Positions 15,249-33,720 of a DNA stretch of 64,000 nucleotides are shown one piece after another; position 1 is the first letter of the stretch, and every line of letters begins with the position of its first letter. The stretch comes from Rhizobium sp. TH2. GTDB taxonomy: Bacteria > Pseudomonadota > Alphaproteobacteria > Rhizobiales > Rhizobiaceae. The notes beneath the pieces are model-generated. The model did no database searches. It worked only from the letters and a program-made list of their open reading frames with translations, and had not been told where the DNA came from. The stretch lies in NCBI RefSeq assembly GCF_024707525.1, contig NZ_CP062231.1:3038001-3102000 (forward strand). The letters are read 5' to 3'. The position numbers and the translations under genes are program-made.

Positions 15249-15299
15249 AGTCTCCTCCTTGTTGAAATTTGCCGGGGTCTCCCGCCCCGGAGCATGCAC

Positions 15300-16181
15300 T
15301 CAGTCTTCCACGCCCCCGAACGGGGGTAGTCCAAACAGCTTCTCGGGATTTTCGACCAGCGCCAGATGGCGCGCGCGATCATCCAGCAGCCAATCGAGTA
15401 TCGTGTCCGTCAGCGCGGCATCGTCGGGATAGTCCGCCGTTATGCGCGCCAGATTGTGGGGCCAGTTGGTGCCCCAGACGATCCGCTCGCGTGCGTGCGA
15501 GGCGATTGCTCGCGAGACGGCGCCGACATCCTCGTAGGTCAGACCGCCCGATTTCGAGGATTCGTAAGCGCCGGCGAACTTGAACCAGCAGTTGCCGGTG
15601 TCGATCAACCGCTTGACCGCCGCGACTTCGGGACCGTCCGGCGCCACACCCCCAAAGAACTTGCCGTGATGGTCGAACACCCAGCGGGACTTGATCCCTC
15701 GCAGCCGCGCTTCATGCTCTAGTATTTTCGTGCCGTCGAACTGCACGGCAATCATCCAGCCACGCGCCGCAGCCTTGGCATCGATCGCCTCAAGTTCGCT
15801 CAGGCCAACTGCACCTCCGGGCAGATCCATGATACGCGCACCGACCACACCGCGATGGGAGAGCCGGTCCAGCTCCGCATCGCTTGTCGTGCTGTCGATG
15901 ACGCCCACGCCGCGCCCGACATCGCCCATTTCGCCAAGGCAGGCCACAAGATTGGAATTGTCGCGCTGATGCGCGTTGCCCTGGGTGACGATGACCCGAT
16001 CTATACCCAGCCAGCACATGACGCTCCGATATTGCCCGGCATCCGGTAAGGCGCCGGCCGGCAGGTCCGGGCCACCGGGTTGGGCAGGAAAACCGGGCAG
16101 ATACATATGCATCTGCGCATCGACCGCACCGCGCGGCAGCTTTGTCTTGGGAGGATGGCCGGTGACGGTTCGGACGATCAT
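15300..16181 (-). CDS. gli: D-galactarolactone isomerase-like amidohydrolase
   Basis: A 293-residue TIM-barrel protein of the amidohydrolase superfamily, in the group of LigI-type lactonases. It opens with LPRGAVDAQMHMYLPGFPAQ, in which the usual HxH metal pair is QMH. It ends with WGTNWPHN, carrying the barrel Asn/His near residue 240. In Agrobacterium the equivalent protein interconverts the 1,5- and 1,4-lactones of galactarate, feeding Gci. The gene sits one base after gci, the same neighbour as in the Agrobacterium cluster. The gene symbol rests on that context and overall likeness. Confidence 0.82.
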   Translation of the reverse strand: MIVRTVTGHPPKTKLPRGAVDAQMHMYLPGFPAQPGGPDLPAGALPDAGQYRSVMCWLGIDRVIVTQGNAHQRDNSNLVACLGEMGDVGRGVGVIDSTTSDAELDRLSHRGVVGARIMDLPGGAVGLSELEAIDAKAAARGWMIAVQFDGTKILEHEARLRGIKSRWVFDHHGKFFGGVAPDGPEVAAVKRLIDTGNCWFKFAGAYESSKSGGLTYEDVGAVSRAIASHARERIVWGTNWPHNLARITADYPDDAALTDTILDWLLDDRARHLALVENPEKLFGLPPFGGVED

Positions 16182-16182
16182 C

Positions 16183-17319
16183 TCAATCGTCCTTCATGCG
16201 GAATTCGGCGAGCGCATCGCGGTTGATCTCAATGCCAAGCCCCGGCCCATTGGGAATTTGGACCACCCCGTTCGTATGCTCGATCGGCGATTTGACCACC
16301 GCCTGCCGGAAGGGGTTGTCCGTGCGATCGAATTCCAGGATCGGCTCGACGGGATTGACGCGCACCGGGTTGGGCACCATGGCCGCCATGAACTGCAATG
16401 CGGCGGCCAGATGCACCGCCGTGCCCCAGACATGCGGCACGAGGCGAATGCCGTGAAGGGCAGCCATATCGGCAACGCGCTTGGCCTCGGTGAAGCCGCC
16501 CACGCCGCAGAGATCTGGCTGGATGATATCGACCGCGCGTGTTTCCAGCGGTTCCTTCATGCCCCAGCGGCTATGCCAGGTCTCGCCGCCCGCGACCGGG
16601 ATCGGCTGCGACGCCTTGATCTCACGATAGGCGCCGAGTTGCTCCGGTACCGCCGGCTCCTCGAACCAGTCGATGCCGAGCTCGGCCGCAGCCCTTCCGA
16701 AACGCACTGCCTCGATGACGTCGTAGCCGTGATTGGCATCGATCATCAGCCGCATATCCGGACCGATCGCCTCGCGGACTGCGCGTGCGACGCGGAGGTC
16801 TTCCTCGACACCGAAGCCGATCTTGATCTTGCAGGCGTGAAAACCCTCGGCGCAGTAACGCGCCGTTTCAAGAGCATTGTCCTCGACCCGGTCGACGCCG
16901 TCGCGTTTGAAGCTGCCGGTAGCGTAGGCCCGGATGCTTTCGCGAAAGCGGCCACCGAGCAGCGTCGAGATCGACGCGCCGAAATGCTTGCCCTTGATGT
17001 CCCAGAGCGCGATGTCGATGCCCGACAGCGCGGTTAGCGTCAGGCCCCGCTGGCCCTGGTCGCGCAGGGCATTGTAAAGCCGCGCCCAGATTTTCTCGTT
17101 TTCGAGCGGGTTTTCGCCGATCAGCCAGTTCCTGTAGGCCCCGACCACCGCCGCATTTGGCCGTGCAGGCCCCAGGCACTCGCCCCAGCCGACCGTGCCG
17201 TCATCGCACTCGATCTCGACCAGCACATGGGCGCGGCGATCAAAGCGCATGGATGCGCTTTCGAACGGCACACTCAGCCGATGTTCGAGGAGATGGGTCC
17301 GGACTGCGGCGATTTTCAT
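16183..17319 (-). CDS. gci: D-galactarolactone cycloisomerase
   Basis: A 378-residue enolase-superfamily enzyme that opens D-galactaro-1,4-lactone to 3-deoxy-2-keto-hexarate. The metal ligands are Asp194 (MIDANHG), Glu220 (WFEEP) and Glu246 (GGETW). The bases are Lys164/Lys166 (CKIKIG) and His296 (VPHVWG). Length and residue spacing fit the Agrobacterium Gci. It starts one base after the kdgD stop and ends one base before gli, so the three are co-translated. It completes the step between Udh/Gli and KdgD. Confidence 0.9.
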   Translation of the reverse strand: MKIAAVRTHLLEHRLSVPFESASMRFDRRAHVLVEIECDDGTVGWGECLGPARPNAAVVGAYRNWLIGENPLENEKIWARLYNALRDQGQRGLTLTALSGIDIALWDIKGKHFGASISTLLGGRFRESIRAYATGSFKRDGVDRVEDNALETARYCAEGFHACKIKIGFGVEEDLRVARAVREAIGPDMRLMIDANHGYDVIEAVRFGRAAAELGIDWFEEPAVPEQLGAYREIKASQPIPVAGGETWHSRWGMKEPLETRAVDIIQPDLCGVGGFTEAKRVADMAALHGIRLVPHVWGTAVHLAAALQFMAAMVPNPVRVNPVEPILEFDRTDNPFRQAVVKSPIEHTNGVVQIPNGPGLGIEINRDALAEFRMKDD

Positions 17320-17320
17320 C

Positions 17321-18293
<973 letters not shown>

Positions 18294-18294
18294 G

Positions 18295-18312
18295 AACTTA
18301 TCATACAGGTTG
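18295..18312. promoter_or_regulatory. 18-bp operator, kdgD copy
   Basis: AACTTATCATACAGGTTG here is the exact reverse complement of 19149-19166 before udh. It overlaps the last codons and stop of the gntR gene and lies directly upstream of the kdgD promoter. It is the probable binding site of the GntR protein encoded between the two copies. Confidence 0.7.
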
Positions 18313-19044
18313 ACGCTGCTCCCTCAGAAGCGCCCGGTAGCGCGCCTGGCTGCCGCGCAGATGCCGGCGCATCGCCTCGCGCGCAGCCTCCTCGTCGCCA
18401 TTGGAAATGGCCGCGACGATCGCGTCGTGTTCCTGGTCGATGAGCTTGATATAGGCGGATTGATCGCTATCGCCGTCGTCGGCCCGCAGTGCCGCGCGCG
18501 GAATCACATTCTTGCCGATCATCGCCAGGAATTCTCGGAAACGTGGATTGTTGGTCGCGTCGGCGATCGCCAGATGCAGCGCGAAATCCGCCTCGATCGT
18601 CGAGTCGCCCGCTTCGAGACAGGCGCGCACGGCATAGTGCTGGTCAAGTATCGCCTCTTCCTGGGCCGGCGACCTGCGCAACGCCGCCAATCCAGCCGCT
18701 TCGACCTCGACGGCCGTACGCAGTTCGAGCATCTCGATCATCGAGGAAACCCGGTCCGGGTCAACATTCCGCACCGACAACAGGCCGGCAGGTGCCACAC
18801 CAGGCGTTTCGAGCACGAAGACGCCCGCTCCCTGTCGGGCCTCAACGAGACGGTCGGCGCGCAGCGCGGCAATGGCTTCGCGCACCACGGTGCGGCTCAC
18901 GCCATGCGCCTCGCTCAATTGCGCTTCGCTGGGCAATTTGCTCCCTGGGGGAAACTGCCCGGATGAAAGCGAGCGTCGGAGATTGTCGGCTAGGCGCGCC
19001 GTCAACGTGCTGGAACTCTGCTCCGGTCTCGGCTGCACGCGCAT
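18301..19044 (-). CDS. GntR/FadR family regulator of uronate catabolism
   Basis: A 247-residue regulator. The winged helix has GSKLPSEAQLSEAHGVSRTVVREAIAALRADRLVEAR near residues 34-69. The helical FCD ligand domain follows, with metal-ligand-like Asp/His residues in FALHLAIADATNN. ATG 19044 has GAGGAG upstream. The gene lies between kdgD and udh, and the two ends of this stretch carry identical 18-bp sites. It probably represses both transcription units and responds to a uronate or aldarate; binding and ligand are inferred. Confidence 0.85.
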   Translation of the reverse strand: MRVQPRPEQSSSTLTARLADNLRRSLSSGQFPPGSKLPSEAQLSEAHGVSRTVVREAIAALRADRLVEARQGAGVFVLETPGVAPAGLLSVRNVDPDRVSSMIEMLELRTAVEVEAAGLAALRRSPAQEEAILDQHYAVRACLEAGDSTIEADFALHLAIADATNNPRFREFLAMIGKNVIPRAALRADDGDSDQSAYIKLIDQEHDAIVAAISNGDEEAAREAMRRHLRGSQARYRALLREQRQPV

Positions 19045-19133
19045 GAATGTCTCCTCATCCCACTCACCGGAGCACCACCATGCGCCAGCTTGCCTGTCAA
19101 GCTCCCATAATTGCGATACACATATCCGACTTG

Positions 19134-19161
19134 TTGACGCAAATCCACCAACCTGTATGAT
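19134..19161 (+). promoter_or_regulatory. Promoter of udh
   Basis: TTGACG (19134-19139) and TATGAT (19156-19161) are 16 bases apart. The -10 box lies inside the 18-bp operator copy at 19149-19166, so a bound regulator would block RNA polymerase directly. Confidence 0.65.
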
Positions 19162-19166
19162 AAGTT
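19149..19166. promoter_or_regulatory. 18-bp operator, udh copy
   Basis: CAACCTGTATGATAAGTT, an exact inverted copy of 18295-18312. It covers the -10 box of the udh promoter. An identity of 18 out of 18 at two control points of one pathway is very unlikely to be chance. Confidence 0.75.
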
Positions 19167-19192
19167 GAAAATATTTGCATATGGAGGATTCC

Positions 19193-19990
19193 TTGAAACG
19201 ATTGTTGATGACCGGCGCGGCTGGCGGTCTGGGCCAGGCGATGCGCCAGCGCATGGCACGGCATGCCGACGCGGTGCGTCTGTCCGACATCACGCACCTG
19301 GGTGACGCAGCGCCGAACGAGGAAATCATTCAATGCGACCTGGGTGACGCGGATGCCGTCATGAAGCTCGTCGAGGGTTGCGATGGCATTCTCCACCTCG
19401 GGGGCATTTCGGTGGAGGATAAATTCTCCAAGATCCTCAACGCCAATCTCCTGGGTCTCTACAATCTCTACGAGGCAGCCCGCGCCCACGGCCATCCCAG
19501 GATTATTTTCGCCAGTTCCAACCACACGATCGGCTTCTACCGCCAGGACCAGCATATCGATGTCACGGCGCCCATGCGGCCGGACGGACTCTATGGCGTA
19601 TCAAAGTGCTTCGGCGAGGCCCTCGCCCGTATGTATTTCGAGAAATTCGGCCAGGAATCGGCGCTCGTCCGCATCGGCAGCTGCCTGGAGAAGCCCAAGA
19701 ACCATCGCATGCTCTCGACCTGGATGTCCTACGACGATTTCGATTCGATGATCGAATGCGTCTTCCGGGCGCCGATGCTCGGCTGCCCGATCATTTGGGG
19801 GGTATCCGACAATGACAGCAGGTGGTGGGACAATTCGCACGCCGCCTATCTCGGCTGGCGCCCCAGGGATAATGCCGAACGCTTCCGCGCCGAACTCGAT
19901 GCAGCGGTGGAAAGACCCGGACCCAAGGCAGCGCTTTCGCTCTATCAAGGCGGCGCATTCGTGGAAGATCCGATTTTCTCCGAGGATTAA
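19193..19990 (+). CDS. udh: Uronate dehydrogenase
   Basis: A 265-residue NAD-dependent SDR-superfamily enzyme that oxidises D-galacturonate or D-glucuronate to the 1,5-lactone, the first step of the pathway. The sequence has TGAAGGLG (residues 7-14), HLGGISVE, FASSNHTIG and the catalytic Tyr134-xxx-Lys138 in YGVSK. It resembles the Agrobacterium enzyme along its whole length. I chose TTG 19193 because GGAGG lies 5 bases before it and the protein then begins MKRLLMTGAAG with the family's length. The ATG at 19181 overlaps that ribosome site. Confidence 0.93.
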   Translation: MKRLLMTGAAGGLGQAMRQRMARHADAVRLSDITHLGDAAPNEEIIQCDLGDADAVMKLVEGCDGILHLGGISVEDKFSKILNANLLGLYNLYEAARAHGHPRIIFASSNHTIGFYRQDQHIDVTAPMRPDGLYGVSKCFGEALARMYFEKFGQESALVRIGSCLEKPKNHRMLSTWMSYDDFDSMIECVFRAPMLGCPIIWGVSDNDSRWWDNSHAAYLGWRPRDNAERFRAELDAAVERPGPKAALSLYQGGAFVEDPIFSED

Positions 19991-20004: not shown

Positions 20005-20784
20005 TCAAGCCGGCTGCATCTCGTTCTCGAAAATCGCACGCAGGAAGGATTCGCTCGGGCGCGGCGCAGCCTGCTCGCTCGATGAGCCTGACACATCCCA
20101 CAGTTCAAGTAACTGGCGGCTGAAGCGGGCGATATGCGCCCGCATCGCTGCGCGCGCCGCATCGCCGTCTCTTGCGGTGAGAGCATCCACGATCCGGCGG
20201 TGATCATCAACGAGCGCGGATTTCATCTCGGCGATCGGCACGCGATGATGCATCGAGGTCCACATCGGCGTCCTCAGGCGTGGCGTCCAGAACTCACGGA
20301 GCGCACGTTCGAGTGCAAGGTTCCCAGCGGCTCGAGCGATCGTCAGATGAAACTGTTCATCAGCATTGTCGCCCCAGAATTGGTCCGGCGTCTCGCGCTC
20401 CATCGCATCGGTCAGATCTCTCAGCTTCGAAATGACCTCCGGTGTCGCACGTGCCGCCGCCATCGAGGCAATCTCGCCTTCCACGATCAGCCTTGCTTCG
20501 AGCAGTTCGAATGGTCCCGGTCCATCAACCTCCTCGATCAGCCCACGCGCAGGCGGCATGGCAGCGACCGTCATCCCGGCTCCGAACCGGTTTTCCACGA
20601 AACCGGTTATCTCAAGCACGATCATCGCTTCACGAATGGTCGCGCGCGAGACATTCAGGCTTTCGCAAAGCTCCCGCTCCGGCGGCATCTTGCTCTCGGG
20701 CAGGAGTTTTCGCGTCGCGATCAGGTCGGCGATCTGGCGCGCCACGAGCTTGTAGAGAGGCGTCTGCTCGACAGACTGAAACAT
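20005..20784 (-). CDS. GntR/FadR family regulator of the larA operon
   Basis: A 259-residue protein with a winged helix (ESKMPPERELCESLNVSRATIREAMIVLEITGFVENR, residues ~31-66) and an FCD domain (EQFHLTIARAAGN). It is divergent from the glycerate kinase-larA-larC-larE-larB operon across 70 bases that contain an inverted repeat. It probably controls that operon and senses its hydroxyacid substrate; this is inferred from position. ATG 20784 gives the normal short N-terminus. It converges with udh, with 14 bases between stops. Confidence 0.85.
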   Translation of the reverse strand: MFQSVEQTPLYKLVARQIADLIATRKLLPESKMPPERELCESLNVSRATIREAMIVLEITGFVENRFGAGMTVAAMPPARGLIEEVDGPGPFELLEARLIVEGEIASMAAARATPEVISKLRDLTDAMERETPDQFWGDNADEQFHLTIARAAGNLALERALREFWTPRLRTPMWTSMHHRVPIAEMKSALVDDHRRIVDALTARDGDAARAAMRAHIARFSRQLLELWDVSGSSSEQAAPRPSESFLRAIFENEMQPA

Positions 20785-20808
20785 GAAATATCCATTGCCA
20801 TTGACAGA

Positions 20809-20827
20809 TTGCCTGACAATAAGGCAA
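20809..20827. promoter_or_regulatory. Inverted repeat between gntR and the larA operon
   Basis: TTGCCT (20809-20814) and AGGCAA (20822-20827) are perfect arms around 7 bases, in the 70-base divergent gap. A TTGACA at 20801-20806 could be a -35 box, but I see no good -10 box. It is a probable operator of the GntR protein. Confidence 0.5.
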
Positions 20828-20854: not shown

Positions 20855-22114
20855 ATGGACATCCAGACAGTACTCAATGACATGTTCGCGGCTGCTCTCA
20901 AGGCTGCCGATCCGTTTCACGCCATTCCGCCGATGCTGCCGGAACGCCCACGCGGCAGGACGGTGGTGCTCGGCGCCGGCAAGGCGTCCGCGCGCATGGC
21001 GCAGGCCGTCGAGGCGGCTTGGGGACCATGCGAAGGGCTGGTCATCGTACCCCACGGCGCGGCATTGCCGACCGAAGGCATCGAACTGATCGAAGCCAGT
21101 CACCCCGTGCCCGATATTAGGTCCGAGACCGGCGCGCGTCGTGTTCTCCAGATGGCGCAGGAACTTGGACCGGACGATCTTGCCCTCTTCTTGATCTCGG
21201 GCGGCGGCTCATCGCTGATGGCACTGCCAGGCGAAGGGCTCACACTGGCCGACAAGCAGGCATTGAACCGTGCGCTTCTGGCGTCGGGGGCGCCGATCAG
21301 CGAGATGAACGTCCTGCGAAAACACCTGTCTGCCATCAAGGGCGGCCGGCTGGCTCTTGCTGCCGCGCCCGCCCGTTGCGTGACGCTGGTGATCAGTGAT
21401 GTGCCGGGCGACGATCTCTCACTGATCGCCTCTGGCCCGACAGTGCCTGATGAAAGCACCACCGCCGATGCCCGCGCCATCGTCGAACGCGCCGGCATAT
21501 TGCTGGCGCCCGCGGCGTCGGCATTCCTGAATTCGCAAGCTTCAGAGACGCCGGGGGCCGACCATCCAGCCTTCGCTCGCACGGAGGCGCATATCGTTGC
21601 CGCGCCACAAGCCTCGCTCGAAGCAGCCGCCGCAATCGCCCGCGTCAATGGCTTCACGCCGATGATCCTCGGCGACGCCATCGAAGGCGAAGCGCGCGAG
21701 GCTGGCCGCGTCATGGCCGGAATCGCGCGCCAGGTCCGCAATCACGGGCAGCCGGGGTCAGCACCTCTGGCAATCATCTCCGGCGGCGAGACGACGGTGA
21801 CCCTGCGCGGCGCGCCCGGAAAGGGAGGACGCTGCAGCGAATTCCTGCTAGGCTTCGCGCTCGCGGCGTGGGATCTACCGGGCGTCAGTGCCCTCTGCTG
21901 CGACACCGATGGCCGCGATGGCTCCGAGCACAATGCAGGGGTTATCTGGGGCTCGGCCCAGCAAGCGAAGGCCGACCGGCGCAAGGCGTTCGATCATCTC
22001 TCGCGCAATGACGCCTACAGCTTCTTCGCCGAAATCGACGGGCTGGTGATGACGGGACCGACGCATACCAATGTCAACGATTTCCGGGTGATCCTCGTGG
22101 AGGCATCGTCATGA
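20855..22114 (+). CDS. Glycerate 2-kinase / MOFRL family protein (TtuD/GckA-like)
   Basis: A 419-residue protein of the class II glycerate kinase family. The N-terminal part has VLGAGKASARMAQAVE and LISGGGSSLMALPGEGLTL. The C-terminal MOFRL domain has IISGGETTVTLRG, CDTDGRDG and DGLVMTGPTHTNVNDF. Members phosphorylate D-glycerate to 2-phosphoglycerate; the older name hydroxypyruvate reductase (TtuD) is often misapplied. ATG 20855 has AAGG 8 bases upstream. Its stop overlaps the larA start (ATGA), which ties it to the nickel-pincer genes. The pathway substrate could be glycerate or a related short hydroxyacid. Confidence 0.85.
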   Translation: MDIQTVLNDMFAAALKAADPFHAIPPMLPERPRGRTVVLGAGKASARMAQAVEAAWGPCEGLVIVPHGAALPTEGIELIEASHPVPDIRSETGARRVLQMAQELGPDDLALFLISGGGSSLMALPGEGLTLADKQALNRALLASGAPISEMNVLRKHLSAIKGGRLALAAAPARCVTLVISDVPGDDLSLIASGPTVPDESTTADARAIVERAGILLAPAASAFLNSQASETPGADHPAFARTEAHIVAAPQASLEAAAAIARVNGFTPMILGDAIEGEAREAGRVMAGIARQVRNHGQPGSAPLAIISGGETTVTLRGAPGKGGRCSEFLLGFALAAWDLPGVSALCCDTDGRDGSEHNAGVIWGSAQQAKADRRKAFDHLSRNDAYSFFAEIDGLVMTGPTHTNVNDFRVILVEASS

Positions 22115-23409
22115 CGATCCATCTTCTCTATGGCCGCGACGGACTGGCGCTCAACCTGCCTCGCGAAGCCCGCCCGCATATGATTGAAAAACCATCCTTC
22201 CCGCCCGCCGGCAGGCCGGAAGCGCTGATCGCATCGGCCCTCGCCCAACCGGTCGGCGGCAAGCCGCTGTCGGAACTGGTGCGCGGTCGTCAGTCAGCCT
22301 GCATACTGATCTGCGATATCACCCGGCCGGTGCCCAATCATCTCTTCCTGCGCCCGATGATCGAGACGATGACGGCGGCCGGCATACCCGCCGACAGGAT
22401 CACCGTCCTGATCGCCACCGGCCTGCACCGGCCGAACGAGGGCGCGGAACTGGAAGAGCTCGTCGGCGATCCCTGGGTGCTCGCCAATGTCAGGGTGGAA
22501 AACCATTTCGCCCAGCGCGACGAGGATCATGTCGATCTGGGCATCACCAAGGGCCGCAGTGTTCCGGTCAAGCTCGATCGCCGGCTGGTCGATGCGGACC
22601 TCAGGATCGCGACAGGTCTGGTCGAGCCGCATTTCATGGCCGGCTATTCCGGCGGCCGCAAGGTCGTGGCGCCGGGTGTCGCCGGCCACGAGACGATCCG
22701 CACCTTTCATTCCGCGCGCTTCATGGAGGACGTGGCGGCGCGCGAATGCAATCTCACCGGCAATCCGCTGCATGAGGAACAGCTCGAAATCGTTCGCATG
22801 CTGGGCGAGGTCTATGCGCTCAACACCGTCATCGACGACAAGCGCCAGCTCGTCTTCGCCTCCTTCGGCGAGATCATCGAGAGCCATCTCGCGGCCGTTG
22901 AATTCGTCCGCGGCTTCACCGAGATTCCGGTCGCGCGCAGGTTCAAGACTGTGGTGACGTCTGCGGCAGGCTATCCACTCGACCAGACTTACTACCAGAC
23001 GGTGAAGGGCATGGTAACGCCGCTCGATATCCTCGAACCCGGCGGCACGCTGATCATCGCCTCGGGTTGTAAGGAGGGGATCGGCTCCAGGCATTTCCGC
23101 GAGGCGCAGGAGCGTCTGATCGCCCTGGGTCCGGATGCTTTTCTCGCGACGCTTGTGGCGAAAACGCTCGCTGATGTCGATGAATGGCAGACAGAAAAAC
23201 AGCTGAAGCCGATGCGCGCAGGCCGCGTCCAGCTCTTCACTGATGGGCTGAGCGAAGCGGACGCGGCGCTTACCGGCGTCGAACGCGTCGGCGACCTTAC
23301 CTCGGCCATATCAGCAGCGATCGCCTACCACGGCGACCCGGATATCGCCGTCATTCCGGAAGGCCCCTATGTCGTGCCGATCTATCATTCCAATGGAGTG
23401 GCCGCATGA
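22111..23409 (+). CDS. larA: LarA-type nickel-pincer-dependent racemase/epimerase
   Basis: A 432-residue member of the lactate racemase family (DUF2088). The residues that hold the nickel-pincer nucleotide in Lactiplantibacillus LarA are at matching places: Lys184 (GYSGGRK, the covalent Lys), His200 (FHS, nickel ligand), and catalytic His106 (GLHRP) and His174 (EPHFMAGYSGG). Gln296 and Lys299 lie where the substrate carboxylate is bound. It should invert a 2-hydroxyacid centre. The substrate is not known: the neighbouring kinase argues for glycerate or a sugar acid, not lactate. Four-base overlaps join it to genes on both sides. Confidence 0.88.
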   Translation: MTIHLLYGRDGLALNLPREARPHMIEKPSFPPAGRPEALIASALAQPVGGKPLSELVRGRQSACILICDITRPVPNHLFLRPMIETMTAAGIPADRITVLIATGLHRPNEGAELEELVGDPWVLANVRVENHFAQRDEDHVDLGITKGRSVPVKLDRRLVDADLRIATGLVEPHFMAGYSGGRKVVAPGVAGHETIRTFHSARFMEDVAARECNLTGNPLHEEQLEIVRMLGEVYALNTVIDDKRQLVFASFGEIIESHLAAVEFVRGFTEIPVARRFKTVVTSAAGYPLDQTYYQTVKGMVTPLDILEPGGTLIIASGCKEGIGSRHFREAQERLIALGPDAFLATLVAKTLADVDEWQTEKQLKPMRAGRVQLFTDGLSEADAALTGVERVGDLTSAISAAIAYHGDPDIAVIPEGPYVVPIYHSNGVAA

Positions 23410-24572
23410 GCGTGCATGTCCATATGGATGCGCCGGGCGGCGTTGCAGGCGATATGTTCCTCGCCGCGATGCTGGATGCTTTTCCTGATCTTGAGCACGC
23501 GTTGCGCCAAGATCTCGCAGATGCCGGTATATCGGAACATGCAAGACTTGAATGGAAGCCGATCCTGAAATCGGGATTTGCTGCCCGTCATGTCCGCTTC
23601 GACATCGACAAGTCCGCACCACCGACGCGGCATTGGCGCGACATAAGGGAAATGCTGACGCGTTCCCGGCTCGAACCCAAGGTTCGCGACAAGGCACTGG
23701 CCATGTTCGTCCACCTCGCCGAGGCCGAGGCGGCGAGCCATGCGATCCCCATCGATGATGTCCACTTCCACGAACTGGCCGACTGGGATTCGCTCGGCGA
23801 TTTCGTCGGTGCCGCTTCGCTCATCGTCCGAAGCGAGGTGACGAGCTGGAGCTGCGGTGCCATCCCTCTCGGATCGGGATTCGTCCAGACCGAGCATGGG
23901 CGCCTGCCCGTTCCTGTGCCGGCCGTGACCGCACTGCTCAAGGGCTTTCCGCTCGCACAGGATGATGCCGCCGGCGAACGCGTGACACCCACCGGCGCGG
24001 CCATCCTCAAGGAATTGATCACCAAGCCAGGCGGTCGCGCGCCCGCCGGCCGGCTGCTCGCCAATGGCACGGGTGCCGGCACACGGCAACTGGCTGGCGT
24101 GCCAAATATCTTTCGCGTGCTTGTGCTTGAGACAGAAGAGAAGGCACCCGAACTCGTGTCGGATCAGGTGCAGCGCATCACCTTCGAGATCGACGACATG
24201 ACGCCAGAGGAAATGGGCGTTGCGCTCGACCTGATCCGCGCCGACGCCGCCGTACTCGATGCCGGCTTCACGCTCGGATTCGGCAAGAAGGGACGGCCGC
24301 GCTTTGCCGTGGACGTCATCGCGAAGGCAGGCGGCGCCGAGCATGCGGCGCAGGTCTGTTTTCGCGAAACCTCGACGATCGGCTTGCGCATCACCGATGT
24401 CGAGCGGCGCGTACTGCCTCGGGTGGAGACCACCGTCGGACTGCTTCGGACCAAACAGTCCGACCGGCTCGGCGTCGTCACCACCAAGGTCGAAAGCGAT
24501 GATCTCGCCGGCATCTCCTCGCTGGCGGAACGTCGCAGGCACGCGCGGAACGCGGAGCAATGCGATGATTGA
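23406..24572 (+). CDS. larC: Nickel insertion protein LarC (cyclometallase)
   Basis: A 388-residue protein with the LarC/DUF111 opening DAPGGVAGDMFLAAMLDAF (residues ~8-26) and the C-terminal region with EIDDMTPEEMGVALD and ETSTIGLRI. LarC inserts nickel into pyridinium-3,5-bisthiocarboxylic acid mononucleotide in a CTP-dependent reaction, the last cofactor step. It is a single continuous frame here, whereas some lactobacilli need a programmed frameshift (larC1/larC2). Its start overlaps larA by 4 bases and its end overlaps larE by 8, so the set is made together. Confidence 0.9.
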   Translation: MSVHVHMDAPGGVAGDMFLAAMLDAFPDLEHALRQDLADAGISEHARLEWKPILKSGFAARHVRFDIDKSAPPTRHWRDIREMLTRSRLEPKVRDKALAMFVHLAEAEAASHAIPIDDVHFHELADWDSLGDFVGAASLIVRSEVTSWSCGAIPLGSGFVQTEHGRLPVPVPAVTALLKGFPLAQDDAAGERVTPTGAAILKELITKPGGRAPAGRLLANGTGAGTRQLAGVPNIFRVLVLETEEKAPELVSDQVQRITFEIDDMTPEEMGVALDLIRADAAVLDAGFTLGFGKKGRPRFAVDVIAKAGGAEHAAQVCFRETSTIGLRITDVERRVLPRVETTVGLLRTKQSDRLGVVTTKVESDDLAGISSLAERRRHARNAEQCDD

Positions 24573-25338
24573 CCCGACCACGCGGCTCGAGCATGTGCTG
24601 GCGCGTTTTCCGCGCCTCGCGGTGGCGGTTAGCGGCGGTGTGGACAGCCTCACATTGGCGACGATTGCCGCACACACCGTGCCGGATTTCGTTGCGGTCC
24701 ATGCGGTCTCACCCGCGGTGCCGGTGCGCGCATCGGAGCGCGTGCGGGAAATAGCCCATCAGCGGAACTGGCGCCTGATCGAGATCCGCGCCGGGGAATT
24801 CGCCGATGCGGACTATCTCAGCAATCCGGTCAACCGCTGTTATTTCTGCAAGAGCAATCTCTACAAGCGAATCCGCCAGGTGACCGACTTTCCGATCGCT
24901 GCCGGGACGAATCTTGATGACCTCTCGGATTTCAGGCCGGGACTGACGGCTGCAGGCGAAAACGGCGTCGTTCACCCCTTCGTCGAAGCCCAGATTGACA
25001 AGAAGACGCTCCGCGAAATCGCCGCACGCGCCGGCCTCGGCAGCGTCGCCTCCCTGCCCGCGCAGCCGTGTCTTTCCAGCCGCGTGGAGACCGGCATCCG
25101 GATTTCGGAGCGCGATCTCGATTTCATCGACCGGGTCGAGCGGCTGGCTGAAGCGTCGCTGGGACCGGTCACGCTGCGCTGCCGGATCACCAGTGGCGGT
25201 GTCCGGATCGAAACCGATGTCGGGCTTCCAATGGCACTCGCCGACAATATCCGGGAGCTCTGTGACGCGGAAAGCCGTCCCTTCCTCGGCATCGCGGCGT
25301 ACAGGCAAGGCAGCGCTTTCGTGGGTGTGAAAGCATGA
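24565..25338 (+). CDS. larE: ATP-dependent sulfur transferase LarE
   Basis: A 257-residue PP-loop enzyme. The ATP site is SGGVDS (residues 23-28). A CYFC pair (Cys92, Cys95) and Cys169 in AQPCLSSR follow. LarE adenylates the carboxylates of the biscarboxylated nicotinic acid mononucleotide and sulfurates them. In the lactobacillal enzyme the Cys of PCLSSR is sacrificed, while other members carry three Cys that can hold an iron-sulfur cluster. The three Cys seen here fit the second type, so this LarE may be catalytic. ATG 24565 overlaps the larC end; the frame upstream of it is shadow. Confidence 0.9.
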   Translation: MIDPTTRLEHVLARFPRLAVAVSGGVDSLTLATIAAHTVPDFVAVHAVSPAVPVRASERVREIAHQRNWRLIEIRAGEFADADYLSNPVNRCYFCKSNLYKRIRQVTDFPIAAGTNLDDLSDFRPGLTAAGENGVVHPFVEAQIDKKTLREIAARAGLGSVASLPAQPCLSSRVETGIRISERDLDFIDRVERLAEASLGPVTLRCRITSGGVRIETDVGLPMALADNIRELCDAESRPFLGIAAYRQGSAFVGVKA

Positions 25339-26012
25339 AGGCGCATACGATGTTCGACTGGACGCGAGGCGACCGCACCGGCGTACCGGAGGTGGTGCTC
25401 GCCGAGCACAAGAGTATTGAGCAGCTCTCCGACATCGCCACGGACGCGATCGATCGCGGGTGCCCGCTCCTCATGACGCGCCTGACGCCAGCGCAGATCG
25501 AGGGGCTCACACATCTGCCGCTGTCGTTCGATCCGCTCGCCAGAACTGCGACACTGAATGCCCCATCGCCCACGGCAGACGCCTGCGCGGTGGGGATCGT
25601 CACCGCTGGAACGTCCGATCTCCCCGTGGCCATGGAGGCCGCAAACAGCGCCGCTTTTCTCGGCCTCAAGCCAAGAGTGTTTGCCGATGTCGGCGTTGCC
25701 GGGCTTTGGCGGCTTCAGGGCGTCATCGCCGAAATCCGGACATTCCCGGTCCTCATTGCCGTGGCGGGCATGGAAGGCGCGTTGTTCTCGGTTCTTGCCG
25801 GGCTGGTCCGCGCGCCAGTAATCGCCGTGCCCACCTCGGTCGGCTATGGCGTAGCCCAAGGCGGACACGCAGCGCTTCACTCTGCCCTCGCGAGCTGCTC
25901 GCCCGGTCTCGTTGTGGTCAATATCGACAATGGCTTTGGCGCGGCGGCGGCGGCGCGCAAGATCGCCCTGAGCTTCAAGCAGTTCCAGGCGCTGTCCGAC
26001 GCGCCGGAATAG
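25335..26012 (+). CDS. larB: Nicotinic acid adenine dinucleotide carboxylase LarB
   Basis: A 225-residue protein related to PurE-type AIR carboxylases. The C-terminal domain has GIVTAGTSDLPVA, VAGMEGALFSVL, PTSVGYG and SPGLVVVNIDNGFGAA. Cys188 (ALASCSPG) is at the place of the Cys that adds to the pyridinium ring. LarB carboxylates and cleaves NaAD, the first step to the nickel-pincer nucleotide. It overlaps larE by four bases and closes the operon, so all cofactor genes (B, C, E) are present. It ends 4 bases before the convergent betaine permease. Confidence 0.9.
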   Translation: MKAHTMFDWTRGDRTGVPEVVLAEHKSIEQLSDIATDAIDRGCPLLMTRLTPAQIEGLTHLPLSFDPLARTATLNAPSPTADACAVGIVTAGTSDLPVAMEAANSAAFLGLKPRVFADVGVAGLWRLQGVIAEIRTFPVLIAVAGMEGALFSVLAGLVRAPVIAVPTSVGYGVAQGGHAALHSALASCSPGLVVVNIDNGFGAAAAARKIALSFKQFQALSDAPE

Positions 26013-26016
26013 TGGC

Positions 26017-27507
26017 TCACTCTCGCCGCCCCTGCACGATCCGGTCGATGATCATTGCGCAAAGCAGAATCGCGAGGCCTGCGAGCAGTCCCTGGCCCAC
26101 TGCTGCATATTGCAGTGCATTGAGAACATCCTCGCCCAAACCCTTGGCACCAATCAAGGAAGCGATGACGACCATGGAAAGGCACATCAGGATCGTCTGG
26201 TTGATGCCGGCCATGATCGACGGCATCGCCAACGGCAGGTCGATCCGCGTCAGCAGGAACCAGCGCGTCGCGCCATAGGCTTCCGCCGCCTCGCGCACCG
26301 CCGCCGGCACGCCCTGGATGCCAAGCGCCGTCAGCCGCACCACCGGCGGCGTGCCGAAGATCAGCGTGGCGATCACACCCGGCGGCTTGCCGATGCCGAA
26401 CAGCGCGATGACAGGGATCAGATAGACGAAAGCGGGCATGGTCTGCATGAAATCAAGCACCGGCCGGATCGCCGTGTAGGCATTCGGCCGCCGGCCACAC
26501 CAGATGCCGAGCGGAATGCCGATCAAGAGACAGAGCACCGCGGACGTGCCGAGCAGCGCCACGGTTTCCAGGCTTTTCTCCCAGAAGCCGAGCACAGCGA
26601 GATAGATGAGTGCCGCGGTCGTGAAGATCGCGACACGGACACCGGCCAACTGCCACGCCAGGATGACGATGACCGCCATCGATACCGGCCACGGCGTTGT
26701 CGTGAGCCCATAGGCCACGCCGTCGAGCACCGCATTGATTAGCCCAGTGATCGCCGTGAACACCGCGTCGCCGGATTTCGACAGCGCCTCCAGCGCCCGA
26801 TCGAGCATGCCCGCGACGTTCGCCTGCCAGTCACGATTTACGGGTGCCGCGATCAGCCAGTCCGGCGGCGATTGCGCCGCGACGCGCCGCGCGGTCAGGC
26901 CATAGGCAAGGATGCAAAACAATGCCGCGAGCGCCGCCGTGGGATAATGAAAACCGCTCCGCAGCCGGCGGTCCGACCGCCAGCGCGTGAAGCGCCGCTG
27001 CAGCATAGGGTTGGCAAGAATACCGATCAGCAGCTTGCCGATCAGCAGCGTCGCCAAGCCTGATCCGACTAGCATCGGCCCGCGCAGTTCGGCGGCTTCG
27101 GCCTGCTTGCGAGCGTTGTCGGCGGCGCGCTGCAACCCGTCGGCGGACCGCATCATGCTGTCGGCACTCGCCTCGCCAGCATCTTTCGCCTTCTGTGCCT
27201 CGATCCGCCGTTCCGCCACCTGCTTGTCGAGACGCTGGGCGCGCACGCGCTGTTCGCCGCCGAGATTGCCGGCAAGGCCGGTCGCGAGCTGGGCCACCGC
27301 CAGCGTCTCCAGGAAGAACGCGAGCCAGAACAGGACCGGCATGGCGCGCGCCGCAGCCCAGATGGGACCAAGAATGGCGGCAGCGGGATTGAACGACCAG
27401 GTGAATCCGGCATGGCTGCGGATGCGGCTGAAGACACCAGTGTAGTACCCGCCATTCTGCTGCGCGAACGCCTGGACGAGATCATTTTCGGAAGAAGGCT
27501 CGCTCAT
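26017..27507 (-). CDS. Betaine/proline-type ABC permease with long N-terminal extension
   Basis: A 496-residue membrane protein. The last ~200 residues are a ProW/OpuAB permease domain, with the EAA loop EAAEAYGATRWFLLTRIDLPLAMPSI. Before it lies an unusual extension. A hydrophobic segment at about 55-80 comes first, then a charged, probably coiled-coil stretch at about 84-144 rich in Arg, Glu, Lys, Ala and Gln, then further membrane segments. The extension may be a regulatory or periplasmic element. The gene starts inside the end of the ATPase gene (4-base overlap). With its SBP and ATPase it forms a quaternary amine importer. Confidence 0.85.
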   Translation of the reverse strand: MSEPSSENDLVQAFAQQNGGYYTGVFSRIRSHAGFTWSFNPAAAILGPIWAAARAMPVLFWLAFFLETLAVAQLATGLAGNLGGEQRVRAQRLDKQVAERRIEAQKAKDAGEASADSMMRSADGLQRAADNARKQAEAAELRGPMLVGSGLATLLIGKLLIGILANPMLQRRFTRWRSDRRLRSGFHYPTAALAALFCILAYGLTARRVAAQSPPDWLIAAPVNRDWQANVAGMLDRALEALSKSGDAVFTAITGLINAVLDGVAYGLTTTPWPVSMAVIVILAWQLAGVRVAIFTTAALIYLAVLGFWEKSLETVALLGTSAVLCLLIGIPLGIWCGRRPNAYTAIRPVLDFMQTMPAFVYLIPVIALFGIGKPPGVIATLIFGTPPVVRLTALGIQGVPAAVREAAEAYGATRWFLLTRIDLPLAMPSIMAGINQTILMCLSMVVIASLIGAKGLGEDVLNALQYAAVGQGLLAGLAILLCAMIIDRIVQGRRE

Positions 27508-28601
27508 GCCGCGTCCTTCCGCTTCAACGCATTCAGGATCGCCGCCGTATCGACAATACCGACAACCACATCCCCGCTCCGCACGGCAATCGGCCCGGCT
27601 TGCCCGGCTGCGATATCCACGAGGTCAGCCAAAACCTGATCTGTGCGTACGCTCGGCAAGGCGGAGAGATCGCGCTCGGGATAGCGCGCCATATTGCCGC
27701 CAACGGGCTCCATGATACTGCCGGCCGTCAGAATGTTGAGCCGCGAAATCTCCGCCACGAACCTCGCGACATACTCGTGCTGCGGCTTGGTCACGACCTC
27801 TTCGGGCGTTCCCGTTTGCAAAATCACGCCGTCCTTCATGACAGCGATGCGATCGCCGATGCGCACCGCCTCTTCGAGATCATGCGTGATGAACACCACG
27901 GTCTTGCCCATGGCCTCCGAGAGCGACAGGAACTCATCCTGCAACTGGCGCCGGATCAATGGATCGAGCGCGCTGAACGGCTCGTCCATCAACAGGATCG
28001 CTGGATCGGCGGCGAGAGCGCGGGCAAGCCCAACGCGCTGCTGCATGCCGCCGGAGAGCTCGTGACAATAGCGATCACCCCAGCCCGTGAGATTGACCTT
28101 GGCCAGCGCGGATTCGGCGATATCGAAACGGCTCTGGCGCGAGGCGCGTTGGATTTCGAGCGGCAGAGCCACATTGTCCCGCACCGTGCGATGCGGCAAC
28201 AGCCCGAAATTCTGGAACACCATGCCGATCTTGTGGGAGCGGAGAGAACGCAGCTCCGCCGGCGATTTCGCCATCACGTTTTCGCCATCGACAAGTATCT
28301 CGCCGGCCGTCGGTTCAAGCAGCCGGTTGACGTGACGCACGAGCGTCGACTTGCCGCTGCCCGACAGGCCCATGATGCAGAATATCTCGCCACAATTGAC
28401 CGAGAGGTGGACATCGGCGACGCCGACGACGCAGTCATAGCGCTCGGCAATGTCCTGCTTGCCGAGCCCCGCCCTTTGCACCGCCGCGAGAGCCTCCTGC
28501 TGGCGCGCGCCAAAAATCTTCCAGACACCCTTCATCACGATCAGCGGCTCGCCGCCAATCGTGAGGTCCTGGGCGATTGGCACCGGACGCGCGTCAGCCA
28601 C
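27504..28601 (-). CDS. Betaine/proline-type ABC transporter ATPase
   Basis: A 365-residue ProV/OpuAA-like ATPase. Walker A GLSGSGKST, signature LSGGMQQRVGLARAL, Walker B LLMDEPFSALD and the H-loop FITHDLEEA are all intact. Residues from about 290 look like a short CBS region (VRTDQVLADLVDIA), as in osmoregulated betaine importers. The insertion before Walker A (QEALAAVQRAGLGKQDIAERYDC) is also usual in ProV. It lies between the binding protein (12 bases) and the permease (overlap). The setting points to uptake of betaine for growth rather than only osmoprotection. Confidence 0.9.
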   Translation of the reverse strand: MADARPVPIAQDLTIGGEPLIVMKGVWKIFGARQQEALAAVQRAGLGKQDIAERYDCVVGVADVHLSVNCGEIFCIMGLSGSGKSTLVRHVNRLLEPTAGEILVDGENVMAKSPAELRSLRSHKIGMVFQNFGLLPHRTVRDNVALPLEIQRASRQSRFDIAESALAKVNLTGWGDRYCHELSGGMQQRVGLARALAADPAILLMDEPFSALDPLIRRQLQDEFLSLSEAMGKTVVFITHDLEEAVRIGDRIAVMKDGVILQTGTPEEVVTKPQHEYVARFVAEISRLNILTAGSIMEPVGGNMARYPERDLSALPSVRTDQVLADLVDIAAGQAGPIAVRSGDVVVGIVDTAAILNALKRKDAA

Positions 28602-28613
28602 TGGCCGAGCCTC

Positions 28614-29579
28614 TCAGTGGCCGAACCACTTCGAGACGTCTTGCTGGTTTGCCTTCACCCATTCCTTGGCGACATCGGCCGCCGGCTTCTTGTTGACGAT
28701 AATCTCGAAGGCCATCTTGCTGACGTCCTCGGGCTTGAGGCTGATCTTCTCAAGCGCGGCGGCTAGGTCTGGCTGGCGCTCGGCAAGCGAAGCGGCATAG
28801 GCGATATGTACGGTCGTGGTCGCATAACCCGATGCGACCTTGGACTTGTTGTACCAGTCCGGATCGTCGTTCGGCTGGACCACCACGAACTTCGCAGGGT
28901 CGTTCTTCGGCTCTTCGAGCATGGCAAGATCATAGCGCGCGAAATTCTGGTGCGGACCGTAGCAATAGCCGATCCAGGGCTTCTTTTCCTTGGCGGCCTT
29001 GTCGAGCGCCGCATTCGCGACCGCCTCGTCGATCACCTGGAGATCGAAGAATTCGGCGAAGCCATAGTCGCGAGCCTTCACCTTCTCGATATTGGTGGAC
29101 TGCCAGCCCGATGCACCCATCCAGATCTCGCCCTTGCCATCGCCATTGGTGTCGAACAGCTTGGCATTCTCGGGATTGGCGAGGTCATAGACGCTCTTGA
29201 TATTGTGGTCTGTGACGGTGTTCTTGGTGACGCAGTAGCCCTGCACCGCCTCGTAGCCGTTGGCGGCGAGCTTCACTGTCTTGCTGCCTTTGACATATTT
29301 GTCGACCAGGCCATTCTGATTGGGCAGCCAGACGTCCGGCCAGATATCGACCTCGCCCTTGTTGCGGTCCATGGCTTCCCAGATCACCGGAACCGCTGTG
29401 GTCGTGACGGTCGATACTTCGAGGCCGAGTTCCTGTTCGGCTGCGGCCTTGATGACGTTCATCACGGCGGTCGCGGTAGCGTAATTCGGGTCGGGCATGG
29501 TCACATCGGCAGCAAATGCCGAGGCGCAACCGGCGCCGGTGAATGCGAGGAATGTGGTGGCAAGCATATACGATTTCAT
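28614..29579 (-). CDS. Glycine betaine/quaternary amine binding protein
   Basis: A 321-residue periplasmic protein with a signal peptide (residues 1-23, LAFTGAGCASAFA). The OpuAC-like body includes VIWEAMDRNKGEVDIWPDVW, GYCVTKNT and KPWIGYCYGPH, rich in Trp and Tyr residues that can cage a trimethylammonium group. A Cys at 18 lies within the leader, but the AFA site fits signal peptidase I better than a lipobox. The gene follows the MttB gene by 100 bases, where a 14-bp direct repeat suggests an extra control point. The exact ligand (glycine betaine, proline betaine, carnitine) is open. Confidence 0.9.
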   Translation of the reverse strand: MKSYMLATTFLAFTGAGCASAFAADVTMPDPNYATATAVMNVIKAAAEQELGLEVSTVTTTAVPVIWEAMDRNKGEVDIWPDVWLPNQNGLVDKYVKGSKTVKLAANGYEAVQGYCVTKNTVTDHNIKSVYDLANPENAKLFDTNGDGKGEIWMGASGWQSTNIEKVKARDYGFAEFFDLQVIDEAVANAALDKAAKEKKPWIGYCYGPHQNFARYDLAMLEEPKNDPAKFVVVQPNDDPDWYNKSKVASGYATTTVHIAYAASLAERQPDLAAALEKISLKPEDVSKMAFEIIVNKKPAADVAKEWVKANQQDVSKWFGH

Positions 29580-29639
29580 ATCGATCCCCCTTTTTGGTTA
29601 CATGTAGAGTGAGAGAAAATTTGCTCCCGATCCATTGGA

Positions 29640-29675
29640 ATCAGGGGCATTAGGAAAAGTGATCGGGGGCATTAG
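29640..29675. repeat. Two direct repeats 22 bp apart before the betaine-binding protein gene
   Basis: ATCAGGGGCATTAG (29640-29653) and ATCGGGGGCATTAG (29662-29675) differ at one base and start 22 bases apart, two helix turns. They lie in the 100-base gap between the MttB gene and the binding-protein gene. This layout suits an activator dimer of the AraC type, such as GbdR. No such regulator is in the window. Confidence 0.5.
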
Positions 29676-29679
29676 AGCG

Positions 29680-31254
29680 TCAATAATAGTCCTGATCCGG
29701 CTTGCTGGCCTTGCGCTTGGCAACGTATTCGCGAAGCGCTTCATCGATCGCCGGATCAAGGCCGGGATCCTGATAATCGGCGAGCAACTGCTTCCATTGC
29801 TTGTTGGCGCGCTGGGCGGCGTCGAGCCCACCTTCGGCGCTCCACTGCTCGAACGAATTGTTGTCGGCGATCGGCGAGCGATAGAAGGCGGAGAGGAAAT
29901 TCGCCTGCGTATGGGCGCTGCCGAGAAAGTGCGAACCCGGGCCAACATCGGCGATAGCATCGAGCGCCTGGGCATTTTCCGAAAGATCGATGCCATCGAA
30001 GAAGCTCGCAATCTTGCCGCAGAGATCGGCATCGATGATCGTCTTCTCAAAACCGGTCACCAGCCCGCCTTCGAGCCAGCCGGTGGCGTGGTTGATGAGG
30101 TTAGCGCCCGCAAGCATCGACATCATCAGCCCCCAGGTCGCCTCCTGTTCTGCCTGCGCATCCGGCAGTTTGGAGGCCGAGAGCGTGCCCACGGTATGGA
30201 ACGGCACGCCAAGCCTGCGCGCCAATTGTCCGCAGGCGAGCACCATCTTGCCGGCCTCAGGCGTGCCGAATGTCGGCGCCCCCGATTGCATCGAGATCGT
30301 GCTGGCAAAGCTGCCCATCATGCAGGGCGCACCGGGATTGATGAGCTGTACGAGCGTGATTGTCGCCAGGGCCTCGGCAAGCACCTGCGCCACTGTCCCG
30401 GCGACCGTCACCGGGCTCATCGCGCCGGCCAGCGTCCATGGCGTGCAGGCGACCGGCTGGTTGTTGCGCGCATAGACCTTCAGCGAACCGGACATATTGG
30501 CATCCAGCACCAGCGGCGCATTGGTATTGCTGACATTATAGAGCACGGCATTGTTGGCGACGAAGTCGTCGCCGAACACGATCTTGGCCATGTCGACCGC
30601 ATCCTGCGCCCGCTCACCGCCGATGAACGCGCCCATGAAGCAGCGGTCGGAATAGCGGATATGGGCATAGAGCATATCGAGATGCCGCTTGTTGGCGGGC
30701 AGATCGACCGGCTCGCATACCACACCGCCGGAATGGTGCAGGTGCGGAATCATCTGGTGGATCTTGATGAGATCCTGGAAGTCGGCATAGGTCGCATAAC
30801 GCCGGCCGCGATCGAGATCATGCACGAAGGGAGGCCCCCAGGCGGGGCACAGCACCGTGTTGTTGCCGCCGATCGTCACCGTATTGGCGGGATTGCGCGC
30901 GTGCTGCTGGAATTCGCGCGGCGCGCTGGCCTGGATGATCTTGCGGCACATGCCGGGCTCGAACCGCACCCGCGTGCCCTGCACATCGGCGCCGGCATCG
31001 CGGAAAATCTGCAGGATTTCCGGGTCGTCATGAAACTCCATGCCGATCTCTTTCAACAGCTTGTCGGCATTGGCCTCGATCAGGCTGAGGCCTTCCTCGT
31101 TGAGGATTTCGTAAGGCGCGAGCTTGCGGTTGATGTAGGGCCGACGTGGCGCCTCGCTGCTGGCGCGCTGCGCGCCCCGCCCGGCGCGGCCGCCTGTTCG
31201 CGAACGCGTCGGCTCGACTGGCGCTTCCGGCACGTCTTGTTCGGTCACATCCAT
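29680..31254 (-). CDS. Trimethylamine methyltransferase (MttB) family protein, non-pyrrolysine
   Basis: A 524-residue protein of the MttB superfamily, in which non-pyrrolysine members demethylate glycine betaine, proline betaine, carnitine and similar compounds. Landmarks are RYATYADFQDLIKIHQ, LDMLYAHIRYSDR and the barrel segment LLSASKLPDAQAEQEATWGL-like region near residue 365. No in-frame UAG is used. The first 40 residues are Arg/Gly-rich and probably disordered. Known relatives need a corrinoid protein, and none is encoded in this window. The operon partners are two demethylating dehydrogenases and a betaine importer. The methyl acceptor is therefore open. Confidence 0.85.
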   Translation of the reverse strand: MDVTEQDVPEAPVEPTRSRTGGRAGRGAQRASSEAPRRPYINRKLAPYEILNEEGLSLIEANADKLLKEIGMEFHDDPEILQIFRDAGADVQGTRVRFEPGMCRKIIQASAPREFQQHARNPANTVTIGGNNTVLCPAWGPPFVHDLDRGRRYATYADFQDLIKIHQMIPHLHHSGGVVCEPVDLPANKRHLDMLYAHIRYSDRCFMGAFIGGERAQDAVDMAKIVFGDDFVANNAVLYNVSNTNAPLVLDANMSGSLKVYARNNQPVACTPWTLAGAMSPVTVAGTVAQVLAEALATITLVQLINPGAPCMMGSFASTISMQSGAPTFGTPEAGKMVLACGQLARRLGVPFHTVGTLSASKLPDAQAEQEATWGLMMSMLAGANLINHATGWLEGGLVTGFEKTIIDADLCGKIASFFDGIDLSENAQALDAIADVGPGSHFLGSAHTQANFLSAFYRSPIADNNSFEQWSAEGGLDAAQRANKQWKQLLADYQDPGLDPAIDEALREYVAKRKASKPDQDYY

Positions 31255-31257
31255 GAT

Positions 31258-33717: not shown

Positions 33718-33720
33718 ATT

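Follow-up and report, generated by a model that had tools for sequence, protein, structure and literature searches.

A 64,000-nucleotide stretch of the genome of Rhizobium sp. TH2 (assembly GCF_024707525.1, contig NZ_CP062231.1, positions 3,038,001–3,102,000; hereafter the window) carries, at 20855–26012 on its forward strand, five overlapping genes in the order class II (MOFRL) glycerate kinase–larA–larC–larE–larB, in which larA encodes a 2-hydroxyacid racemase dependent on the nickel-pincer nucleotide (NPN). In this study, the operon is read as a route by which L-glycerate would be racemised to D-glycerate and then phosphorylated to 2-phosphoglycerate, a reading to which a probability of about 0.7 is given; the substrate of LarA and the direction of its reaction are what we infer. 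The gene order, family membership, conserved residues, a conserved site upstream of the operon and a kinase linkage that is repeated in other genomes are seen in the sequences themselves; glycerate is the best-supported substrate on the ground of gene context, the partner kinase being of the class that in T. tenax uses only glycerate.

In the proposed mechanism, LarB, LarE and LarC would make the NPN, which LarA would hold on Lys184. With proton-coupled hydride transfer between His106 and His174, LarA would interconvert the two enantiomers of glycerate. D-Glycerate would then be phosphorylated to 2-phosphoglycerate by the class II kinase, so pulling racemisation forward, and a divergently encoded GntR protein would probably keep the operon repressed through a near-palindrome next to a TTGACA hexamer, with release by a hydroxyacid, probably glycerate. 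The operon would then act as a salvage module that brings L-glycerate into central metabolism. A kinase beside the racemase points to a likely substrate and to a concrete, testable physiological role and, if the reading is true, nickel-pincer enzymes would gain a clear function in plant-associated and marine Pseudomonadota.

Kinase, racemase and cofactor genes

The initial annotation had described a complete kinase–larA–larC–larE–larB set with genes overlapping end to start, and this was confirmed, with overlaps of 4, 4, 8 and 4 bases between consecutive genes. Its term 'fused' was wrong, as the coding ends of neighbouring genes merely overlap, and gene fusion within the operon was ruled out. 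The first gene (20855–22114, +) encodes a class II glycerate 2-kinase with the Pfam domains DUF4147 (273.6 bits) and MOFRL (107.3 bits), both over their cut-offs, and matches PDB entry 2b8n (TM1585) with an E value of 5e-79. Its domain pair and, by alignment, the two key residues of 2b8n liken it to the class II kinases TM1585 and T. tenax GarK, from which it differs in being encoded in one operon with larACEB. The residues in question are a lysine and an arginine aligned with Lys47 and Arg325 of 2b8n, which we take, by number and by key role, to be those of TM1585. Activity of the T. tenax enzyme of this class is confined to glycerate (D 100%, L 30%), none of lactate, malate and gluconate being used when tried, and the glycerate kinase classes share no common origin, according to the available text of one study (PMC2063504). 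No class I or class II glycerate kinase besides that of the window was found in the host genome; class III was not searched for.

LarA (22111–23409, +) contains the Lar_N and LarA_C domains, both over the Pfam cut-offs, which shows that the domains of the LarA superfamily are present; Pfam and NCBIfam matches, a match to PDB entry 9eid (E 3.5e-103) and its residues mark it as a group 2 (SAR-like) NPN-dependent 2-hydroxyacid racemase. Alignment shows that the catalytic and cofactor residues D69, R72, H106, H174, K184, H200, Y295, Q296 and K299 are kept. His174, Lys184 and His200 stand at the numbers given in the initial annotation, and the other catalytic histidine is residue 106 rather than 108. 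Phe175, Met176, Val298, Trp359 and Gln360 make up the pocket, and the pair Phe175-Met176 fits the signature of group 2 SAR enzymes of the I. pallida type; in the part of the family survey available to us, Leu-Met or Phe-Met after the second histidine is the mark of group 2, and the discussion suggests that other LarA homologues may act on glycerate (PMC7583248).

Among relatives with solved structures, the broad-spectrum enzyme of Isosphaera pallida (LarAH2/Sar, or LarAIp; 9eid/9eia) is the closest; it is 42% identical over the aligned part and agrees in the catalytic, NPN-binding and carboxylate-binding residues and in the equivalents of Met176, Val298, Trp359 and Gln360, but has Leu174 where the window LarA has Phe175. 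The enzyme of Lactiplantibacillus plantarum (5huq) shares the family and the cofactor and catalytic residues, but is only ∼30% identical over the compared part and has the pocket Phe-Phe-Trp-Thr rather than Phe-Met-Trp-Gln; identity is also ∼30% to chain 2yjg, which we assume to come from Thermoanaerobacterium thermosaccharolyticum. A tree with characterised homologues, a check that the initial annotation had proposed, clusters LarA with the broad short-chain I. pallida type and not with the L. plantarum type (SH-like approximate likelihood-ratio test 100, but with three reference chains only, all of them long-branched). The lactate racemase equivalog NF033504 gives LarA 341.3 bits, below its curated cut-off of 460, and the malate racemase models LarAH5 and LarAH6 give 292.6 and 250.3 bits, below cut-offs of 500 and 462.

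LarA has Gln360 in place of Thr359 of the L. plantarum enzyme, not the lysine of the malate type. Pocket signatures have been published for malate (H/Q, K), hydroxyglutarate (Y, F, H/Q, T) and gluconate (E, V, A, H) (available text of PMC11770544), and tartrate, malate and gluconate appear disfavoured as substrates because the pocket residues of LarA do not fit. Glycerate racemisation by LarA enzymes is already known in vitro. The I. pallida enzyme acts on 14 substrates, including L-glycerate and 2,4-dihydroxybutyrate, and is best on L-lactate and 2-hydroxybutyrate, followed by L-glycerate, as far as the accessible portion of that paper reports (PMC11851776). LarAH43 of Enterocloster asparagiformis prefers glycerate, with a kcat/KM of 114 × 10^3 versus 83 × 10^3 for lactate (PMC11770544, same portion); it resembles the window LarA in the glutamine at the position of Gln360, the only feature compared, but is a member of the LAR group.

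The three remaining genes encode the predicted cofactor enzymes. LarC (23406–24572, +; nickel insertion) lies in a single reading frame, as had been claimed, with the LarC1 and LarC2 models (TIGR00299, NF052512) both over their NCBIfam cut-offs, and is over cut-off in Pfam also. LarE (24565–25338, +; TIGR00268 over cut-off) is a putative sulfur transferase that carries the SGGVDS loop. The three cysteines noted in it earlier hold good for the CXXC-C motif (Cys92, Cys95 and Cys169) but not for the total, which is five (also Cys206 and Cys233). The [4Fe-4S]-dependent LarE of Thermotoga maritima has as ligands Cys92, Cys95 (96 in one passage) and Cys172 in the available text of PMC9283937; the window LarE appears similar in its SGGXDS and CXXC-C motifs, with cysteines at 92/95/169 against 92/95/172, and differs in that the fourth cysteine near the motif of the T. 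maritima enzyme is not seen. LarB (25335–26012, +) matches the pyridinium carboxylase/hydrolase model NF033503 over cut-off.

Kinase linkage in related larA loci

The linkage was followed through 104 related loci (numbered with the prefix L), comprising 80 from named genomes (the best 80 of 562), two from a set of 60 host relatives and 22 from 384 further genomes of the class; three further matches, from a phylum sample of 397 other genomes, lie outside this set. Flank lengths vary and some are short, and identical LarA rows, possibly duplicates, form at least two pairs (L028/L164 and L048/L167). Class II kinases, belonging to several kinase lineages, are found near larA in eight loci. In L006, L007, L062 and L065 the kinase gene immediately precedes larA, which is the arrangement of the window; in L024 and L052 it directly follows larB, overlapping it by gene calls, and in L013 and L178 it is a few kilobases from larA on the opposite strand, so that six of the eight adjoin the lar genes, on either side, and run in the same direction. 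By chance, ∼0.22 such kinases would be expected (995 non-lar genes in the flanks of the locus set that gave 8 of 104, with one kinase per 4500 genes assumed and the loci not being independent). In L013, the kinase is grouped with tartronate semialdehyde reductase, hydroxypyruvate isomerase and pyruvate kinase.

A class I kinase (PF02595, over the Pfam cut-off in each case) is found near larA in four further loci: L067, L074, L080 and L081. Since the kinase classes share no common origin, larA is linked to one metabolite through two unrelated protein families. The kinase linkage that the initial annotation had suggested looking for in other genomes thus recurs, and with two families, but it is a minority pattern (12 of 104 loci).

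Three of eight plasmid matches were opened. Plasmid pRlX3 of R. ruizarguesonis has larACEB followed by a class II kinase, and the Rhodovastum plasmid RHOApc (L187, 2656–9034) has, beside insertion sequence elements, the order KdgT-family permease–larA–larC–larE–larB–class I glycerate kinase; the third, pSK01, has neither kinase class. A KdgT-family permease also accompanies the class I kinase in L067, and that of L187 may be a glycerate carrier.

In a separate observation on the cofactor genes, no larB, larC or larE was detected with larA in the available flanks of 17 of the 104 loci (L008, L022, L031, L038 and 13 others), the queries having been the window proteins only and some contigs being short.

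We lean, with somewhat better than even confidence, towards a wider view in which the pairing of a nickel-pincer racemase with a glycerate kinase is a dedicated L-glycerate catabolic pathway that was assembled several times with two unrelated kinase families. One form would have moved among Granulosicoccaceae, Rhodobacterales and rhizobia as a complete package that includes cofactor synthesis, a regulator and an operator, and one pocket would serve for either lactate or glycerate, depending on gene context. Neither a dedicated glycerate-racemase operon nor work on a 'glycerate racemase' or a LarA racemase that pairs it with a glycerate kinase was found in the literature searched, which excluded subscription papers and supplements; Table S1 of PMC7583248 may list the kinase association. 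No kinase is mentioned in the main text of PMC11770544, and neither a kinase nor an operon in that of PMC11851776.

Glycerate weighed against other substrates

Several observations weigh against a dedicated glycerate pathway. Neither kinase class is present in the available flanks, some of them short, of 92 of the 104 loci, and four of the six Rhodobacterales loci nearest the window (L003, L004, L005 and L008) have no kinase. On the trees, the kinase-linkage label is hardly more clustered than expected by chance: on the LarA tree, where gains and losses are not distinguishable, the class II label changes eight times (at least five forced by starred branches), a count as low being reached in 109 of 500 shuffles, and on the kinase tree, built from 30 rows with one gene included twice, the linked label changes six times (at least four forced), with 46 of 500 shuffles as low. 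On the latter tree, the kinases of the window, L006 and L007 group at 100/99 and are joined by those of L062, L065 and L088 at 100/99, with the kinases of genus relatives apart. The genome of L088 has no larA match, and this kinase lineage is therefore not confined to larA operons. In addition, the operon contains no transporter gene, and the authors of the family survey caution, in its available text, that context is not always predictive of activity (PMC7583248).

The same side of the balance holds the evidence for the strongest alternative, which we regard as unlikely: that LarA is mainly a lactate or general short-chain 2-hydroxyacid racemase, with the kinase co-regulated and its glycerate supplied by another route. 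In the accessible portion of PMC11851776, the I. pallida enzyme prefers lactate and 2-hydroxybutyrate, and its pocket is described as hydrophobic, a polar group lowering reactivity. One clade of six loci (L028, L040, L047, L048, L164 and L167, which include two pairs with identical LarA) has a gene of the LutB type, for L-lactate oxidation, ahead of the lar genes (L028, the one locus scanned, gave 480.6 bits against a cut-off of 444.8), and its Phe175, Met176, Trp359 and Gln360 are identical to those of the kinase-linked loci. On plasmid pSK01 of R. leguminosarum (L185, 1–19272), larA lies in a cluster resembling a fucose/rhamnose oxidative route, with a 2,4-didehydro-3-deoxy-L-rhamnonate hydrolase-like protein (414.5 bits, cut-off 500), a GlcD-like oxidase, an amidohydrolase, an MR/MLE enzyme and gloA. 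The product of such a route is presumably L-lactate, which the pSK01 LarA may racemise. A rhamnonate-type hydrolase gene (418.5 bits) also adjoins larB in L007, which is kinase-linked.

As a minor point, the lar order in L028, L047, L048, L164 and L167 is larC–larE–larB–larA. The pocket varies little across the set: Phe175 is present in 104 of 104 loci, Met176 in 102, and Trp359 and Gln360 in all 103 rows that reach them, while position 298 is Val in 86 rows and Ile in 17. Ile298 marks L024, L052 and nine rhizobial loci that, like pSK01, carry an ABC transporter of the branched-chain type next to larA (as scanned in representatives). Pocket residues were rejected as a test of glycerate versus lactate, as kinase-linked and LutB-linked loci do not differ consistently at any of the 14 listed positions, the 14 columns that do set them apart being others. 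The key pocket residues are the same across contexts and therefore cannot tell the two substrates apart; since the four are shared by all context groups, the members of this LarA subfamily are best regarded as short-chain racemases, with the partner genes determining the substrate.

Against lactate stand the recurrence of two unrelated glycerate kinase families beside this LarA subfamily and the failure of the T. tenax class II kinase to use lactate, as given in the available text of PMC2063504. Furthermore, no lactate permease or lactate dehydrogenase model was matched over cut-off among the 18 window proteins scanned, all between 14 and 36 kb, and to that extent the earlier remark that neither gene is nearby was borne out. 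The proposal in the initial annotation that L-glycerate feeds the kinase thus gains from the kinase linkage and from the conserved operator-like site and regulator; its further statement that the substrate is not lactate was not shown, given the same pocket in lactate contexts and a characterised relative that prefers lactate.

It is quite improbable that LarA and the kinase act on a larger or other hydroxyacid, such as 2,4-dihydroxybutyrate or another C4 acid, with the specificity of the kinase shifted. The I. pallida enzyme accepts 2,4-dihydroxybutyrate (PMC11851776, accessible portion) and the window kinase is only 50–53% identical to kinases of genus relatives, but the specificity data for class II kinases show glycerate alone (PMC2063504, available text), and the linked class I kinases, an unrelated family, are also named for glycerate. 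A malate, tartrate, 2-hydroxyglutarate or gluconate racemase or epimerase tied to the adjoining hexuronate-type cluster, which encodes KdgD and a TRAP binding protein, is hardly credible, as the Phe-Met-Trp-Gln pocket is unlike the malate, hydroxyglutarate and gluconate signatures, the UDH-like gene of that cluster converges on the GntR gene and the kinase–lar unit has its own conserved site.

Control region, origin and surroundings

A FadR/FCD-type GntR regulator (20005–20784, −; Pfam GntR and FCD domains, start codon uncertain) is encoded divergently from the kinase. Between the two genes, GATTGCCTGACAAT is located at 20807–20820 (+), directly 3′ of the −35-like hexamer TTGACA (20801–20806, +), which is also present in L006 and L007 and would belong to the promoter. 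The near-palindrome GATTGYCTGACAAT is exact in eight of 190 loci, namely four copies of the window region and L006, L007, L062 and L065; it thus lies 5′ of the kinase in the window and in all four relatives found with this gene order. Divergent GntR homologues upstream of the kinase are 55% identical in L006 and 60% in L007. In L062 and L065, the near-palindrome separates the kinase gene from a divergent gene for a TRAP binding protein, and GntR matches (55 and 50%) are found at the locus edge, ∼6 kb away, beyond TRAP transporter genes (DctP in both; DctM).

The chance expectation for the site in the window, with at most one mismatch, is 0.04. With both strands counted, the 6.44 Mb host genome has a single exact copy of GATTGYCTGACAAT and two one-mismatch sites, both inside open reading frames, as are both of the two-mismatch sites whose surroundings were opened. 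A GntR regulon with several targets was ruled out on the basis of the single exact site and the position of both one-mismatch sites. The scarcity of the site, together with the conservation of site and regulator, therefore fits a local regulator of one promoter, and the near-palindrome is the probable operator of the GntR regulator, as judged from sequence conservation; repression by this protein and a hydroxyacid effector are steps that we infer.

The unit probably reached the Rhizobium genus horizontally from a Rhodobacterales-like source, to judge from gene comparisons. This is proposed because the window LarA groups with those of Paracoccaceae and Roseobacteraceae (seven rows, 99), because the window kinase shares 69% identity with its counterpart in L006 and 67% with that in L007, against 50–53% with nine kinases of eight genus relatives, and because LarA is present in only two of 60 host relatives, 55 of which have a class II kinase. 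The LarA of a same-genus genome (G006) groups with rhizobial LarAs, unlike that of the window; it was not retained as a pseudogene, as the aligned stretch has no stop, although one TGA is listed inside it. The guanine-plus-cytosine content of the operon (0.60–0.66) is not distinct from its surroundings, and composition therefore lends no support of its own to a transfer.

On the regulator side of the operon, window positions 14274–19990 hold a hexuronate/aldarate-type cluster that encodes a TRAP solute-binding protein, an MR/MLE-family enzyme, a 5-dehydro-4-deoxyglucarate dehydratase (over cut-off), a second GntR regulator and the UDH-like short-chain dehydrogenase. On the other side, 26017–36159 (−) is convergent with the operon and, with matches mostly below curated cut-offs, contains choline/betaine-type ABC transporter genes, a gene for an MttB-family methyltransferase and genes for two large GcvT/SoxA-like oxidoreductases.

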